Source: Lachnospiraceae bacterium
GTDB lineage: Bacteria > Bacillota > Clostridia > Lachnospirales > Lachnospiraceae
Assembly (NCBI GenBank): GCA_024403275.1
Contig: JAKSSD010000009.1
Span: 1 to 53,824 of the forward strand
DNA length: 53,824 bases
Reading direction: 5' to 3'
Each line of letters begins with the position of its first letter. Within the stretch, counting starts at the first letter, position 1. Below the pieces are notes generated by a model. The model did not search any database. It saw only the letters and a list, made by a program, of their open reading frames with translations, and was not told where the DNA came from. Position numbers and translations under genes: made by a program. This document shows positions 8,928-27,474 of the stretch, one piece after another.

Positions 8928-10655
8928 TTACTGATTCTTGTACTTAATGGAAATATTGATAATTTCCTGTTTATCTTCTGGTGTAATCATCTTAGTTGAT
9001 TCAATCTTAGCGATTACATCTGGTCTTGAATTCTTGAAATATGTAAGTACCTTGCCTATCTCTTCATTTATCTTCTTATATGGAACATCCTGGAAGAAAT
9101 GATTAAGAGCAATTATAAGCAAAATAACCTGTTCTGCCTGTGAATATGGCTTGTACTGAGGCTGTCTTAAAACATACATAAGTCCCTGGCCATAAACTAA
9201 CTGCTTTTGTGTTGCCTCATCAAGGTCTGATGAGAACTGGTTAAATACTTCCATTTCTCTATACTGAGCCAAATCAAGTCTTAAGGAACCTGTAGCCTTC
9301 TTAACCGCCTTAGTCTGTGCATCACCACCTACACGTGATACCGAAAGACCTACATTAACCGCTGGTCTTTGACCTTCGAAGAAAAGATTACTCTCAAGGA
9401 AAATCTGTCCATCAGTAATAGAAATTATATTTGTAGGAATATATGCTGAAACATCTCCAGCCTGAGTCTCAACTACAGGAAGTGCTGTAATTGAACCGCC
9501 TCCTAATTCATCACTTAAATGTGCTGCTCTCTCAAGCAATCTTGAATGAAGATAGAATACGTCTCCAGGATAAGCCTCACGTCCAGGTGAACGATCTAGT
9601 AAAAGACTTAAGGATCGGTATGCAATAGCATGCTTTGACAAATCATCATAGATAATAAGTACATCCTTGCCCTGGTGCATGAAAAATTCTGCCAAAGCAC
9701 ATCCTGAATATGGTGCAATATACTGAATTGGTGCAGCATCTGAAGCAGAAGCAGTAACAATAATTGTATATTCCATAGCACCATGCTTCTTAAGGTTTGT
9801 AACAAGCTGTGAAATCAAGCTTGCCTTCTGACCTATAGCAACATATATACAGATAACATCTTTGCCTCTCTGATTAACAATAGTATCAATTGCAATTGAA
9901 GTCTTACCTGTCTGTCTGTCACCGATAATAAGTTCTCTTTGTCCTCTTCCGATTGGGAACATAGAATCAATACATAAGATTCCTGTTTCCATTGGCTGAT
10001 TTACAGGCTGTCTCTCGATAATAGAAGGTGCAGGACTTTCAATTGCTCTATATCCTTCTTCCTGAATATCTCCGAGTCCATCAATAGGTTCGCCAAGCGG
10101 ATTAACTACTCTTCCAAGGAATTCATAACCTACCGGTATACCGGCACTTCTTCCTGTTCTCTTTACTTTACTTCCTTCATAGATTTCATCTGTATCATCA
10201 AAGAGAATACATCCAATCTCATCTTCTCTTAAATCAAGTACCATACCTCTGATACCGCCCTCGAAGATAAGGATTTCTCCGTATGTAGCATTATCGAGTC
10301 CTTCAACACTGGCAATACCATCACCTATGCTGATAACTTTTCCATATTCTACAGGTACTCCCTTTGGTGTCCAGTCCTTAAGGTTTTCCTTAATAAGAGG
10401 AATGATATTGTCATTATTTTTACGACCTTTTACGCTTTGAAGCATTTCCTTGAACTGTTCAAGCCTTCCAAGCTTTGTCCAGTCATAAACCTCCTGACCT
10501 ACCTCAAGTCTGAAACCACTCTCAATATCTGCGGTCTCACACCATTCCATTGATATATTGCCATACTTCTTAACAAGGAACTCTTTTAATTTCTGTTCCT
10601 GGCTCTCAGTAGGCTTTACTTTTGAATATAATATAGCCTTAAGCTCATTATCCAT
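8928..10655 (-). CDS. atpA: ATP synthase F1 subunit alpha with N-terminal delta (OSCP) C-terminal domain
   Basis: This 575-residue protein is about 75 residues longer than a usual alpha subunit. From about residue 100 it is a complete alpha: VEYGKVISIGDGIASVEGLD, then Walker A GDRQTGKT at 245-252 (169-176 in E. coli). Residues about 5-73 are not alpha sequence. They match the C-terminal domain of delta/OSCP: a strand-helix start (AILYSKVKPTESQEQKLKEF), then a Gly-Phe and the hallmark VGQEVYDWTKLGRLEQFKEM. No atpH gene lies in its usual place: b ends at 10659 and this ATG is at 10655, preceded by GAAAGGA. The fusion probably replaces the delta link between F1 and the b stalk; the delta N-terminal domain is absent. 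The fused reading frame is intact. Confidence 0.95.
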   Translation of the reverse strand: MDNELKAILYSKVKPTESQEQKLKEFLVKKYGNISMEWCETADIESGFRLEVGQEVYDWTKLGRLEQFKEMLQSVKGRKNNDNIIPLIKENLKDWTPKGVPVEYGKVISIGDGIASVEGLDNATYGEILIFEGGIRGMVLDLREDEIGCILFDDTDEIYEGSKVKRTGRSAGIPVGYEFLGRVVNPLGEPIDGLGDIQEEGYRAIESPAPSIIERQPVNQPMETGILCIDSMFPIGRGQRELIIGDRQTGKTSIAIDTIVNQRGKDVICIYVAIGQKASLISQLVTNLKKHGAMEYTIIVTASASDAAPIQYIAPYSGCALAEFFMHQGKDVLIIYDDLSKHAIAYRSLSLLLDRSPGREAYPGDVFYLHSRLLERAAHLSDELGGGSITALPVVETQAGDVSAYIPTNIISITDGQIFLESNLFFEGQRPAVNVGLSVSRVGGDAQTKAVKKATGSLRLDLAQYREMEVFNQFSSDLDEATQKQLVYGQGLMYVLRQPQYKPYSQAEQVILLIIALNHFFQDVPYKKINEEIGKVLTYFKNSRPDVIAKIESTKMITPEDKQEIINISIKYKNQ

Positions 10656-10658
10656 TTT

Positions 10659-11141
10659 TTAGTTCCTTTCAACAGCATTTAAGAACTCATCGTAAGAATC
10701 AACATTTGAATCCATAACAATCTTTGCAGTTGCTTCGTCAACAATCTGAGCAATGTCTTTTTGTGCATCAGCAATAATTCTGTCATGCTCTTCCAAAGCC
10801 TTCTCTCTTGACTTCTTAACAATAGCCTCTGCTTCTTCCTTGGCCTGGTTAAGAATCTTATCTCTTTCAGCCACTGTATCTTTTCTTGAAGCCTCAAGCT
10901 TCTCGCTAATCTGTGCATCAACATTGCCAAGTTTTTCTTCAACTTCAGCTTTTTTAGTTTTAGCCTCTTCATTTGCCATCTTGGCTTCTTCATCCATTTT
11001 CTTATAGTATTCTGCTCTCTGATCCATAAATTTACGAACTGGCTTATAGAGAATGAAATACATAAGACCGAAAAGGATAACAAAGTTCAGCAAATGTAAT
11101 AAAATCTGTTGAATATCAATATTTAATGGTAAATTTCCCAT
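10659..11141 (-). CDS. atpF: ATP synthase Fo subunit b
   Basis: This 160-residue protein is the peripheral-stalk b subunit. One membrane helix near the N-terminus (LLNFVILFGLMYFILYKPV) leads into FMDQRAEYY and a long charged coiled coil rich in Ala, Glu and Lys. It ends VDSYDEFLNAVERN, with no delta domain attached, so this is not a b-delta fusion of the mycobacterial kind. It lies 27 bases after atpE and four bases before the start of the delta-alpha fusion. Confidence 0.95.
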   Translation of the reverse strand: MGNLPLNIDIQQILLHLLNFVILFGLMYFILYKPVRKFMDQRAEYYKKMDEEAKMANEEAKTKKAEVEEKLGNVDAQISEKLEASRKDTVAERDKILNQAKEEAEAIVKKSREKALEEHDRIIADAQKDIAQIVDEATAKIVMDSNVDSYDEFLNAVERN

Positions 11142-11168: not shown

Positions 11169-11528
11169 TTACAATACAAATACTACTAAGATAGCTACGA
11201 TCAATGCGTAAATAATAGCCGTTTCAATAAATACAAGACCAAGCATCAGAAGTGTCTGAATCTTACCAGATGCTTCTGGCTGACGTGAAACGCCTTCTGC
11301 AGATCTTCCTACTGCAAGACCCATACCAAGAGCACCACCCATAGCTGCAAGACCAACTGCGATTGCAGCACCAAGTGCCTTATACATAATTACGTCATTC
11401 TCATTAGAACCAACTACTGTAACTGCTACATCATCAGCTGCAGCCATAGCCTTTACTGGTGTAAATGCAATTCCTAATGCAACTGTTAATAATAAAAGAG
11501 CTGCAACTATTTTAAATAAATTTTTCAT
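11169..11528 (-). CDS. atpE: ATP synthase Fo subunit c with signal-like N-terminal extension
   Basis: This 119-residue protein is a two-helix c subunit carrying about 40 extra N-terminal residues. Residues 1-29 look like a signal peptide: a Lys-containing start, the core VAALLLLTVALGIAFTP, and a possible cleavage site after AMA at 29. The c hairpin follows, with helix 1 (ALGAAIAVGLAAMGGALGMG), the loop SRQPEA, and helix 2 with the ion carboxylate Glu102 in FIETAIIYALIV. Compared with sodium-type c rings, the helix-1 Gln position is Met here, while Thr and Tyr near Glu102 are kept. Proton coupling is somewhat more likely, but not settled. Its start overlaps the atpB stop by one base. Confidence 0.93.
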   Translation of the reverse strand: MKNLFKIVAALLLLTVALGIAFTPVKAMAAADDVAVTVVGSNENDVIMYKALGAAIAVGLAAMGGALGMGLAVGRSAEGVSRQPEASGKIQTLLMLGLVFIETAIIYALIVAILVVFVL

Positions 11529-23937: not shown

Positions 23938-26900
23938 TTAATCCTCTTTCTTTTCTTCTGTTTCTGCCTTTGGAGCTTCTTCCTTAGCTTCTTCATCTTC
24001 TGGCTTCTTCTTTGTAGATACTACAAATGCTGCCCCTGCAAGTACTGCTGCAGCGCCAATTCCAATGAATGCACCAATTTTGCTCTTCTTATCAGTCTTG
24101 CCTTCTGTTGATGCATCACCTGTTGCAACTGGAGCATCAATCTTTTCAACAAGCATAGCTGAACCGTAGCATGCTGGAGATGACCAACACTGGTTTGTGA
24201 TATCATTCCATGTAACTGTACCAATTCTCATTGTTGAAGAATCAGCATCGTTAATCTGGAGTTCAATACCAATGTTTGCACCAACTGCAGGAGTAACTTC
24301 TGTCCACTTGAATGCACCTTCTACAATGTATCCAGTTTCTGTTGTCTTAGCAACTGTAGTTAAGTTTTCCTCAACACATGTTTCGCCATTGAATGAATGA
24401 TCATTGTTATAGTTGATTCTATACTGCTTTGTAGCATTGTTGTACTCTGCAGCCTTTGAATTAGTCTCATCAATGAATACTTCTAATGAATCCTGCTGAT
24501 GTACTTCTTCATTATCCTTATTTAAATCTGAATCTGTAACCTCTGCATATACATAAAGATTCTGCTCATCCCAGAGAACCTTAACCTTAGCTGTTGCCTG
24601 TGGGTTATCAGTCTTATTTCCAAGTGTAACTTCTACTGCATCTTTCCATGCATCATCAAGTTCACCATCTACTGTGATTGTTCCCTTAGGAATAAACATA
24701 AATGGCTTTAATGCACCTTCTGCATAGAACTTACTTGATGTTGACTGTGAAAGTGATGAATCGTTAAATGCAACCTGCTTGTCGCCATTAGTAACTACTA
24801 CATCAAAGCCTACAACCTTATTAGCTTCAGCTTCATCTACTGCTACATTAACAACTGCCTTATATCCTTCATCTGTTGCCTCTGCATCAGCTCTTGTAAC
24901 CATAACACTCTTAGTCTTAATACCATTAGACTTACTGTTATATTTATCTAAGTATACTGTTACACCATCTGTACCATCATCTGTTGCATCTTTAACCTCA
25001 ACAAGGAACTGAACCTGACCAGGATTCCAGATTGGTTTAACTGTAACTTCTGTTCCTTCGCCTGAGAAATTAATTTCATCAGCTGCATCAAAATCATCTG
25101 CAAGTGCCTGCTTAATATCTACAGACTTAGCTTCTGGATCAAGCTTAGTTGGATCTACCATTGCCCAGAATGCTGGCTTAACCTTATAGTCATCATCGAA
25201 AATCAATGGACACTGTGGGCTACCATCAGTTACGCCACCACCAACACCTGTGAATGCCTGAAGCCATGAATTACCATCAAGAACACCCCAGATAATCCAT
25301 GCGCCTACTTCTACTGAACCTTCATCATGAAGCTTCTTTAATGAATCATAAAGTCCCTTATAACGATATGCCTGTCTTGAATACTCTCCCTGAAGAGTAG
25401 CAGCTGTACCATCATAAGCACTACTTGACTTGAAATCAAGCTCTGTAATCTGAATCTTACCAACTACTTCGCCATACTTTTTAGCTGATGCTTCGAACTG
25501 ATCCCAGTTAGGATACTCATTGTCATAGTGAGCCTGCATACCCATACCATCAATTCTTGCACCCTCTGTTGCCTTTACATCTTTAAGTAACTGAACAATG
25601 CCTTCTACCTTACCTGGTGTACAGTCATTGTAATCATTGTAATAAAGCTCTACGCTTGCTGGAGCATACTTGTTAGCAAATACGAATGCATTTGTAATGA
25701 ATTCGTTGCTCTGGTATACCTTCCACCACATTGAACCCTCAGAATCTTTTCTGTAAGTTCCTGAACCATCACTAACTGCTTCATTAACTACATCCCAGCC
25801 ATAGAATAAATCTTTATATTTGCTGTCCTCACCAACATAGTGTTCAAGAACAGTCTTAATATACCACTCATGACGAAGGTTCATTACCTCTGGTGTTACA
25901 AGTGGCTTGCTTACATCATAATCCTCGTGGAAGAACCACTCTGGAGTCTGTGAATGCCATGTAAGTACATGACCACGAATCTTAAACTGAGCATTTGGAT
26001 TCTCTTCATTCCACTGAAGGAAATAATCAAGATATTTCTCTGCCTGTGAGAAGCTAAGTACTGGAACATCGATTTCCTGTCCATTAATTGTAGCCTTCTC
26101 TGTTCCTCTAATTGCATTGCCAAGATGTGCATCTGGCTTAAGCTCATTACCAAGTGTAACTGCATTAAAATGCTTTGTTACAAGCTGCATAAGAACCTTA
26201 TCGTTAATTTCACCACCAGAAAGTGATGTACCAACGATCATATCGTTACCGAAATCTTCAGTGAATTTATCTTTAAGATTTGGAACACCTGCTTCAATTG
26301 AAGCTGTTTCAAGATTCATATCTACAAATGAAGCACCTGCAATGTAATATCTACCTTTAACGCAGTCACCTTCACCATAATTTTCACCCTGCTCAAGGAA
26401 ACGAAGAACAAGCTTCTCAATGTTTCCACCAGCCTGAACCTTATATGTACCTTCAAACTTTGTCCACTCACCTGGTGTAAGCTGCTGGCTTGAATTACCA
26501 GTTACATTAGGTGAATATGAACCCTGATATTCTGTGCTTCCACCAACAGTGATATATGGAGCAAAATCTACCTGTCTCTGAGTTGCAGGAGCACCCTCAT
26601 AATCCTCTGAAAGCATAATATAGAAGCAGTAAGCATATGTCTTACCATCTTCTACAATATCTGTTACATCATAAGCGAAACAGTCATAAGGTCTCTGTCT
26701 GTCGCTAATAACAGCATATGTTGTTACATCACCAAAGATTGGTGTGTCGCTTGTAGCTGTAGAAATCTTTGCTGTTTCAGCCTCTACTGTCCACTTTGAT
26801 ACGTCTGCATCTGTAAAGTAACCATTCTCAAGAAGGTTTTCTCCTTCAACTGAAGGGCCAGCATCTGGCTCAGCTTCCTTGTTTGCATCAGGATTTCCTT

Positions 26901-27375
26901 CACCTGATACTGTAAATGTTACGCTTGCGATAACAGCGTCTGTTGTACCTTCATTTAAAGACATGATAGAGAAATACTCTACACCTTCTGTATCAGGAAT
27001 AATAGTTGGGTTACCATATGATACTGGTGTACCGCCCTTATTATCTGACTCATAGTCTGCCTTTGTGTGAAGTTTGAATGCAAGATCACCTGCATTACCA
27101 CTCTTAACATCAAATGTTACCTTTGTGATTGTTGAAGGATCAATATCACTTGGGATTGCATAGAACTGTGACTTGTACTGTCCCTTAAATGTAATCTCGA
27201 GTTCATTGTCCCCATTGACCTCAGAAGTTAAATCATACTCCATAGTAGATTTAAGCATTGAGAAGTCGTAAGTTTTCTCTGCTGGTGCTGCCTTAGCCTT
27301 CATTGGTACCATTGGTACAACAAGCGCAAGAAGCATAAGAGCACTCATCAGAAATGCCATGATTCTCTTTGACAT
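23938..27375 (-). CDS. Surface-anchored multidomain GH10 endo-1,4-beta-xylanase
   Basis: This 1145-residue protein cuts xylan chains outside the cell. Domains in order: signal peptide (1-30); a beta-sandwich, probably carbohydrate-binding (32-157); a CBM22/CBM4_9-type module (178-360, ENLLENGYFTDADVSKWTVE); the GH10 barrel (367-742); two CBM9-like modules (about 752-887 and 892-1079). A membrane helix (1100-1120, IGAFIGIGAAAVLAGAAFVV) then leads to a short acidic tail. The acid/base Glu532 (DVVNEA) and nucleophile Glu645 (QITELD) are present, as are TWHSQTPEW and WGVLDGNSW. The ATG at 27375 is chosen: GGAGAG precedes it and the signal peptide starts there. Anchoring by a membrane helix, without an LPXTG motif, differs from sortase-linked enzymes. 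Confidence 0.96.
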   Translation of the reverse strand: MSKRIMAFLMSALMLLALVVPMVPMKAKAAPAEKTYDFSMLKSTMEYDLTSEVNGDNELEITFKGQYKSQFYAIPSDIDPSTITKVTFDVKSGNAGDLAFKLHTKADYESDNKGGTPVSYGNPTIIPDTEGVEYFSIMSLNEGTTDAVIASVTFTVSGEGNPDANKEAEPDAGPSVEGENLLENGYFTDADVSKWTVEAETAKISTATSDTPIFGDVTTYAVISDRQRPYDCFAYDVTDIVEDGKTYAYCFYIMLSEDYEGAPATQRQVDFAPYITVGGSTEYQGSYSPNVTGNSSQQLTPGEWTKFEGTYKVQAGGNIEKLVLRFLEQGENYGEGDCVKGRYYIAGASFVDMNLETASIEAGVPNLKDKFTEDFGNDMIVGTSLSGGEINDKVLMQLVTKHFNAVTLGNELKPDAHLGNAIRGTEKATINGQEIDVPVLSFSQAEKYLDYFLQWNEENPNAQFKIRGHVLTWHSQTPEWFFHEDYDVSKPLVTPEVMNLRHEWYIKTVLEHYVGEDSKYKDLFYGWDVVNEAVSDGSGTYRKDSEGSMWWKVYQSNEFITNAFVFANKYAPASVELYYNDYNDCTPGKVEGIVQLLKDVKATEGARIDGMGMQAHYDNEYPNWDQFEASAKKYGEVVGKIQITELDFKSSSAYDGTAATLQGEYSRQAYRYKGLYDSLKKLHDEGSVEVGAWIIWGVLDGNSWLQAFTGVGGGVTDGSPQCPLIFDDDYKVKPAFWAMVDPTKLDPEAKSVDIKQALADDFDAADEINFSGEGTEVTVKPIWNPGQVQFLVEVKDATDDGTDGVTVYLDKYNSKSNGIKTKSVMVTRADAEATDEGYKAVVNVAVDEAEANKVVGFDVVVTNGDKQVAFNDSSLSQSTSSKFYAEGALKPFMFIPKGTITVDGELDDAWKDAVEVTLGNKTDNPQATAKVKVLWDEQNLYVYAEVTDSDLNKDNEEVHQQDSLEVFIDETNSKAAEYNNATKQYRINYNNDHSFNGETCVEENLTTVAKTTETGYIVEGAFKWTEVTPAVGANIGIELQINDADSSTMRIGTVTWNDITNQCWSSPACYGSAMLVEKIDAPVATGDASTEGKTDKKSKIGAFIGIGAAAVLAGAAFVVSTKKKPEDEEAKEEAPKAETEEKKED

Positions 27376-27419
27376 TGTTTCTCTCCTCCTTCTAAAGAAT
27401 ACCTTCTCAAGCATTCTTT

Positions 27420-27435
27420 TGTGCCTTTTGGCACA
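27420..27435 (-). promoter_or_regulatory. Stem-loop at the 5' end of the xylanase mRNA
   Basis: TGTGCC and GGCACA pair around four bases, about ten bases downstream of the -10 box. It should therefore be at the extreme 5' end of the transcript. Such hairpins can protect mRNA from decay; a protein-binding site is also possible. Confidence 0.45.
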
Positions 27436-27444
27436 TTTAAAAAA

Positions 27445-27474
27445 ATTATAGCAAACCAACATTATTAAAATCAA
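27445..27474 (-). promoter_or_regulatory. Promoter of the large xylanase gene
   Basis: TTGATT (27474-27469), an 18-base spacer and a consensus TATAAT (27450-27445) lie 70 bases before the start codon at 27375. Confidence 0.7.

Follow-up and report, generated by a model that had tools for sequence, protein, structure and literature searches.

The DNA analyzed here (the window, a stretch of 53,824 nucleotides from a Lachnospiraceae bacterium) encodes on its minus strand a complete F-ATPase operon in the order a-c-b-[deltaCTD-alpha]-gamma-beta-epsilon. The delta subunit contributes its C-terminal domain (CTD) as the N-terminus of alpha, and the delta N-terminal domain (NTD) is absent. The best explanation, and one we regard as reasonably probable, is that these genes specify a second F-ATP synthase in which delta would be replaced by a CTD on every alpha, a stalk anchor that would permit several stalks. 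The window protein is a natural counterpart of an architecture engineered in Bacillus PS3, and a multi-stalk enzyme is predicted, with its stalk number and ion ratio extrapolated from that engineered homologue. The finding is largely anticipated by the one 2025 paper describing the construct (Ueno et al. 2025, PMC12229609); what is added here is a wider distribution, repeated origin, intermediates, and coexistence with the canonical enzyme.

The fusion gene and its operon

A preliminary description of this DNA, made from its letters alone, had read the N-terminus of alpha as a delta CTD, and a profile search with residues 1-75 bears this out. Residues 3-72 correspond to positions 101-172 of the 172 in the PF00213 (OSCP) profile, with E=3.7e-7 for residues 1-75 alone and 1.1e-5 for the whole protein, both over the Pfam cut-off of 22.3 bits. 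NCBIfam delta models match the same stretch (E=1.7e-6 and weaker), all below their own cut-offs. A profile of 40 canonical deltas from the genomes analyzed gave E=3.8e-3 for the window CTD and 8e-9 to 0.08 for other CTD fusions, a weak score which indicates that the window CTD is divergent. The remainder of the protein is a full alpha (TIGR00962, residues 80-567, 737 bits against a cut-off of 484), and the alpha N-terminal helix region (DNIIPLIKENLKDW) is kept behind a short variable linker. When residues 1-110 were searched against the PDB, two sequences were found at E<=0.01, the better being the engineered deltaDeltaN-alpha chain 9jc1_I, which aligns across the junction (6-108 to 5-110, E=5.1e-4), and the other 6n2y_I, the wild-type PS3 delta CTD. 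At full length, residues 6-561 of the fusion align with 5-563 of 9jc1_I in one stretch, at rank 4 after plain alphas. An internal start at Met71, which would give a CTD-free alpha of normal size, was rejected because Met71 is not conserved.

The preliminary description was also correct that the delta NTD is nowhere in the operon and that no delta gene is hidden between atpF and alpha. Neither the ORFs nor a Pfam scan revealed an NTD in the fusion chain or elsewhere in the operon, and the b stop codon (TAA, 10661-10659) is separated by a single AAA from the alpha ATG, which begins at 10655, leaving no space for a further gene (TAA-AAA-ATG, 10661 to 10655; Table 1). With no separate delta gene among its ORFs or in the Pfam scan, the operon departs from the canonical eight-gene form. 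Membership in the F-type ATP synthases is clear for alpha, beta, gamma, and epsilon, all of which score over the NCBI equivalog cut-offs. Subunits a, b, and c pass the Pfam cut-offs and fall below those of NCBIfam (for atpB, best E=1.8e-17 and TIGR01131 47.1 of 102.6 bits; for atpE, TIGR01260 41.9 of 43.95 bits; for atpF, TIGR01144 34.6 of 65.5 bits), indicating that the membrane part is divergent. Alignments show that the essential Arg of subunit a (residue 206, in the motif SFRLFG), the ion-binding Glu of subunit c (in VFIETAIIYAL), and the C-terminal segment of b are all kept. Elsewhere, the window encodes a large xylanase-type protein (23938-27474; GH10 with CBM9 and CBM4_9 domains) and a peptidase of the clostripain family (C11; 241-2052).

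Table 1. Features of the F-ATPase operon in the window
Feature	Positions	Strand	Basis
atpB, subunit a, 284 aa	11528..12382	-	Pfam ATP-synt_A E=1.3e-18, over cut-off
atpE, subunit c, 119 aa	11169..11528	-	Pfam ATP-synt_C E=4.4e-15, over cut-off
atpF, subunit b, 160 aa, single copy	10659..11141	-	Pfam ATP-synt_B E=2e-14, over cut-off
b stop TAA and AAA, then alpha ATG in same frame	10656..10661	-	sequence
CTD-alpha fusion gene, 575 aa, ATG start	8928..10655	-	ORF and Pfam/NCBIfam/PDB matches
delta/OSCP CTD, fusion residues 3-72	10440..10649	-	PF00213; PDB 9jc1_I, 6n2y_I
alpha N-terminal helix region, fusion residues 80-98	10362..10418	-	TIGR00962 start at 80; N-terminal comparison
atpG, gamma, 314 aa	7952..8896	-	Pfam ATP-synt E=1.3e-92; TIGR01146 276 of 194 bits
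atpD, beta, 465 aa	6534..7931	-	TIGR01039 799 of 463 bits
atpC, epsilon, 140 aa	6096..6518	-	Pfam ATP-synt_DE_N E=6.5e-19; TIGR01216 72.5 of 67.25 bits

Two known departures from the canonical form bear comparison with this operon. Mycobacteria possess a b-delta fusion, in which delta is joined to a b-type subunit; the window gene likewise fuses a delta domain to another stator subunit, but it is the CTD alone that is joined, and to alpha, while b ends at its own stop codon (10661-10659), so that membership in the b-delta type was rejected. The N-ATPases, according to PMC5706428, also lack a delta gene and are additional to the main ATP synthase, two features shared with the window operon, and have a longer b instead. 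An N-ATPase identity was rejected, as all seven window subunits score below the cut-offs of the alternate-F1F0 models (TIGR03324 605 < 750.5; TIGR03321 54.9 < 224.7; TIGR03323 105 < 282; TIGR03305 595 < 752).

Stalk anchoring and the engineered homologue

The preliminary description reasoned that a CTD on alpha would make the NTD dispensable, which we judge to be right, and rightly saw a puzzle in three CTDs for a single stalk, to which Ueno et al. 2025 (PMC12229609) offers a published answer. There, residues 2-104 of Bacillus PS3 delta were removed and the remainder fused to alpha. The resulting enzyme, solved by cryo-EM, carried as many as three b2 stalks, with three a subunits (by gel the average was about two stalks), and showed canonical docking of b2, an H+/ATP ratio of 5.8 +/- 0.4 versus 3.0 +/- 0.2, and ATP synthesis from a weaker membrane voltage. 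Stalks had been lost from some molecules, three-stalk particles made up a very small share, and pumping was below that of the wild type. The epsilon C-terminal domain was absent from both PS3 enzymes compared, the delta/alpha part being the only change, and the authors concluded that the number of stalks is set by the delta NTD.

The architecture is not without precedent: in addition to the engineered case, the same paper reports natural ones from Acidaminococcus fermentans and under UniProt G4Q3K6 and A0A1I2C5T3. A search of the open-access literature for other delta-alpha fusions, including those of Lachnospiraceae and Oscillospiraceae, found no report beyond PMC12229609; PMC4478896, on butyrivibrios, gives a count of F0F1-ATP synthase subunits, and the portion available mentions no second enzyme or fusion. 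Like the engineered enzyme (PDB 9jc1), the window protein consists of a delta CTD, a short linker, and an alpha with its N-terminal helix, with no delta NTD and no separate delta in the operon. It differs in being natural, in being far from PS3 in sequence here (E=5.1e-4 over residues 1-110), and in that the PS3 construct is without the epsilon C-terminal domain. The A. fermentans enzyme, G4Q3K6, and A0A1I2C5T3 are similar by the published description, with delta and alpha fused, the NTD missing, and multiple stalks predicted (PMC12229609). Compared by description only, the A. fermentans case differs from the window clade in that the latter comprises Lachnospiraceae, Oscillospiraceae, and other Bacillota, and in that its fusion stands beside a canonical F-ATPase in many genomes.

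In the mechanism that we propose, delta would be replaced by the stalk-binding CTD fused to the N-terminus of every alpha, and each CTD would bind a single b2 dimer in the canonical manner, by analogy with the PS3 construct. The NTD, which lies on the threefold axis, would otherwise limit the count to one, so that in its absence up to three b2 stalks could dock. As each stalk would bring its own a subunit, the ion-to-ATP ratio could rise two- to threefold, which may permit ATP synthesis at low driving force and, in reverse mode, the movement of more ions per ATP against a small gradient. The parts that such a mechanism needs are all kept, namely the CTD, the linker, the alpha helix, the b C-terminal segment, Arg206 of a, and the Glu of c. 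Among the observations that weigh against this explanation are the lost stalks, rare three-stalk particles, and reduced pumping of the engineered enzyme, a CTD more variable in sequence than the alpha barrel and core, the absence of the fused operon from 7/30 genomes of the same genus, and one relative (L017:5998-8025) whose alpha has two tandem CTD-plus-helix units, the copies 66% identical; the resulting six CTDs per hexamer do not follow from a simple three-stalk reading.

The last of these observations also fits a different arrangement, which we consider less probable, in which the CTD on alpha anchors b2 while the assembled enzyme takes up a single b2 and a single a and leaves the other two CTDs empty, whether through normal levels of a and b production or through obstruction of further stalks by the first. 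The extra CTDs of L017 would then show that surplus CTDs are tolerated, and the window operon has a single gene each for a and b in the normal arrangement, as do the related operons within the extent of their loci. Even the engineered enzyme averaged only about two stalks, with three-stalk particles rare (PMC12229609), but that same homologue formed multiple stalks with nothing other than delta/alpha changed. The repeated loss of the NTD described below fits release of a one-stalk limit, but it is compatible with simple redundancy as well.

Distribution, dependence on delta, and origins

The claim that atpH is missing holds for the window operon but not for the genome. A whole-genome OSCP search detected one full delta of 181 aa (G000:C103:68031, E=2.2e-50) within a complete operon of atpI-like, a, c, b, delta, alpha, gamma, beta, and epsilon genes, the ORFs of which were read by eye, with delta and alpha also identified by profile. 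The presence of this full canonical operon together with that of the window indicates that the organism has two F-ATPases. In NTD and OSCP searches of the same genome, an NTD was found only in this canonical operon, apart from one weak NTD-profile match (E=0.002, in a 682-aa frame) that was set aside, and a delta NTD hidden elsewhere was rejected on this basis. A full atpH elsewhere in the genome had been named as evidence against the fusion; one is indeed present, and the idea nonetheless stands, since no full delta was seen in relatives that carry this fusion.

The N-terminal 85 residues are encoded in 26/61 genomes of a kinship sample, comprising the organism itself, 23/30 genomes of the same genus, 2/6 of the same family, and 0/24 of the same order; the open frame spans 576-603 aa in 25 of the 26 and 493 aa in the remaining one, which is on a short contig. 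The seven same-genus genomes without the fusion have a full delta, and in four of the 30 (81-86% complete) the fusion was found and a full delta was not. The preliminary description wished to see the spread within Lachnospiraceae checked; the fusion is not restricted to this family, as the clade also holds Oscillospiraceae and other Bacillota. A scan of species genomes yielded 32 loci with related alphas, cultured Faecalibacterium among them, including three named isolates with the fusion (L015, L019, and L035). An OSCP search in the genomes of 28 of these loci (L013, L029, L031, and L033 were left out) found 11 with the CTD form only, 9 with both CTD and full delta, 3 with a full delta-alpha fusion (683-aa frames), and 5 with no fusion; most of the 11 are metagenome-assembled genomes of unstated completeness, in some of which the absence of delta may be a gap, and the counts overlap with the kinship sample by at least two genomes (G061 ~ G016, G062 ~ G029). 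An alpha search in the 11 detected one F-alpha in each of 10, and in G088 two fragments at contig ends. In the cultured Faecalibacterium sp. An121, CTD-alpha is the sole F-alpha detected and OSCP occurs in the CTD form only.

A phylum survey covered 398 genomes, 338 of which had an OSCP match among the matches listed. Thirty-six, chosen for weak or several OSCP matches, were re-opened, and 15 of these encode a fusion (14 CTD-alpha, with G304 below the Pfam cut-off, and 1 full delta-alpha); loci were fetched for 14 of the 15, G262 being left out. In 8/15 the single alpha is the fused one and there is no full delta. These eight include two genomes that are 100% complete, G349 from the window's clade and G108 on one contig; in each, the sole alpha is the fusion and the sole OSCP match is its CTD. 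The NTD profile at E<=0.1 matched nothing in 9/10 of the fusion-only genomes tested (G088 left out), nor in G108; the remaining one, G061, gave two weak matches (6.5e-4 and 0.07) in 687- and 293-aa frames. The sensitivity of these searches depends on the profile used, as our in-house OSCP profile at E 0.05 missed the CTDs of L128 and L138, both of which Pfam detects (L128, E=2.3e-6; L138, E=6.9e-5 on its N-terminal piece, just over the cut-off, with the whole protein below it at 18.4 of 22.3 bits). From the genomes with neither a full delta nor an NTD, the fusion can apparently do without delta.

These data bear directly on whether the canonical delta might serve the window enzyme as well, with the fused CTD as a mere accessory. 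A full delta is encoded in the genome and could in principle interact, and the fused alpha retains the N-terminal helix that is normally part of delta binding. Such sharing is nevertheless very improbable, given that 11/28 of the related-locus genomes have the fused alpha only (as fragments in G088) and no full delta, that the same is true of 8/15 re-opened fusion genomes with one alpha, and that a free NTD was not found in 9/10 of the fusion-only genomes tested.

The history of the fusion was examined with an alpha tree of 89 rows inferred by a quick method. The window falls in clade A (22 rows, support 96), the sister of which is a small clade in which four rows have a separate delta, three a full delta-alpha fusion, and two CTD-alpha; CTD-alpha likewise occurs in the distant clade B (9 rows, support 85, unstarred) and in L123. 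A single clade of all 34 CTD rows was rejected (p-AU 1e-44), as were clades A and B as one (p-AU 2e-43) and A with L123 (p-AU 0.001), whereas a single origin was not rejected for A with L137/L140 (p 0.556) or for B with L123 (p 0.607). These rejections indicate that CTD-alpha arose at least twice, and we claim two origins rather than four from these trees; the window clade arose separately from B and from L123, which also carry CTD-alpha. The limits of clades A and B were set after inspection of the tree. The first tree left out L037, L038, and L043 (same contigs as the window, L005, and L006), the fragments L029, L033, and L036, and the duplicates L001, L074, and L109; the second left out L144, L147, L163, and L167 (canonical loci with no recognized alpha), dropped L027, and thinned clade A to 22 rows. 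The forms found were separate delta, full delta-alpha fusion, CTD-alpha, and, in L017, an alpha bearing two CTDs. The simplest path is a fusion that later lost its NTD, and the full fusions of Choladousia and kin and of G470 are likely its intermediate.

The membrane subunits also vary among these clades. The 119-aa window subunit c (11169-11528) has a signal-peptide-like N-terminal extension, as does c in nearly every clade A operon whose c ORF is complete (~114-159 aa), whereas c of the sister clade is without one (72-75 aa in most); subunit a is likewise longer in most of clade A.

Several other arrangements of delta domains were encountered. L131:4192-5064 encodes an unfused delta of 290 aa between b and alpha, with one NTD and two CTDs (33% identical), which could bind two b2 dimers. 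Small free-standing proteins with little beyond a delta CTD are encoded in L130 (3572-4054, 4177-4599, and 8013-8348) and L141 (4814-5722), with no ATP synthase genes in the stretches fetched around them; those of L130 lie near ORFs that by eye resemble an AAA ATPase and a VWA protein. A free-standing delta NTD of 127 aa (L125:4204-4587) has no ATP synthase gene in the 10 kb fetched, and NTD-only matches occur in three more genomes of its genus. In L142:3107-7644, a 214-aa frame that weakly matches the OSCP CTD adjoins ORFs with only a distant resemblance to F-ATPase beta (scores 114 and 118), and this locus may encode a V/A-type ATPase together with an E subunit.

Constraint on the fused protein was estimated from 23 sequences of the genus. 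The CTD (mean identity 0.53, median dN/dS 0.25, pN/pS 0.44) and alpha helix (0.61, dN/dS 0.25) are more variable than the alpha barrel (0.75, dN/dS 0.11), core (0.90, dN/dS 0.05), and C-terminal part (0.68, dN/dS 0.13); synonymous sites are saturated, and dN/dS is safe in sense only. The values point to purifying selection on the CTD, weaker than on most of alpha. The faster evolution of the CTD relative to the barrel and core is all that would favor a degenerating pseudogene or an artifact in which a remnant of delta became attached to alpha through misassembly or the loss of a stop codon, and the chance of this is negligible, since the same N-terminal domain occurs in independent genomes (26/61 and the named Faecalibacterium isolates), is under purifying selection, and is part of the sole F-alpha detected in several genomes. 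The sequencing error that the preliminary description asked about is excluded by the same recurrence, and the delta CTD-alpha fusion is, on this genomic evidence, real.

Two enzymes in one cell

The two operons of the organism differ in the ion-binding site of subunit c. By alignment, the canonical c has Gln, Glu-Thr-Thr, and Tyr at what we take to be the ligand positions of Na+-binding c rings, and the window c has Met where canonical c has the ligand Gln. Applying this rule to both subunits, the canonical enzyme is probably Na+-coupled and the fused enzyme probably H+-coupled. We tentatively suggest, at slightly less than even odds, that a probably H+-coupled CTD-alpha enzyme beside a probably Na+-coupled canonical one could act as a second gear, with a high ion-per-ATP ratio suited to low driving force or to cheap acid export. 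Two ion circuits could be connected to Rnf (Na+) and Ech (H+). An Rnf subunit is present in the genome of the organism; a PF00146 (Ech/complex-I type) protein was found in G034 and G074 and in none of the organism's own genome, G004, G015, and G012. As its own genome has no PF00146 protein, Ech does not account for the second enzyme here and was rejected as its explanation.

A working rule for F-ATPases is one stator stalk and one a subunit, with the ion/ATP ratio determined by the c-ring alone. On the basis of A. fermentans and two other sequences, Ueno et al. suggested that natural enzymes may depart from this rule (PMC12229609). The survey presented here makes the suggestion of natural multi-stalk enzymes testable on many enzymes of gut Clostridia, for which sister operons with a separate or fully fused delta serve as controls, and some of these cells hold both types of enzyme.
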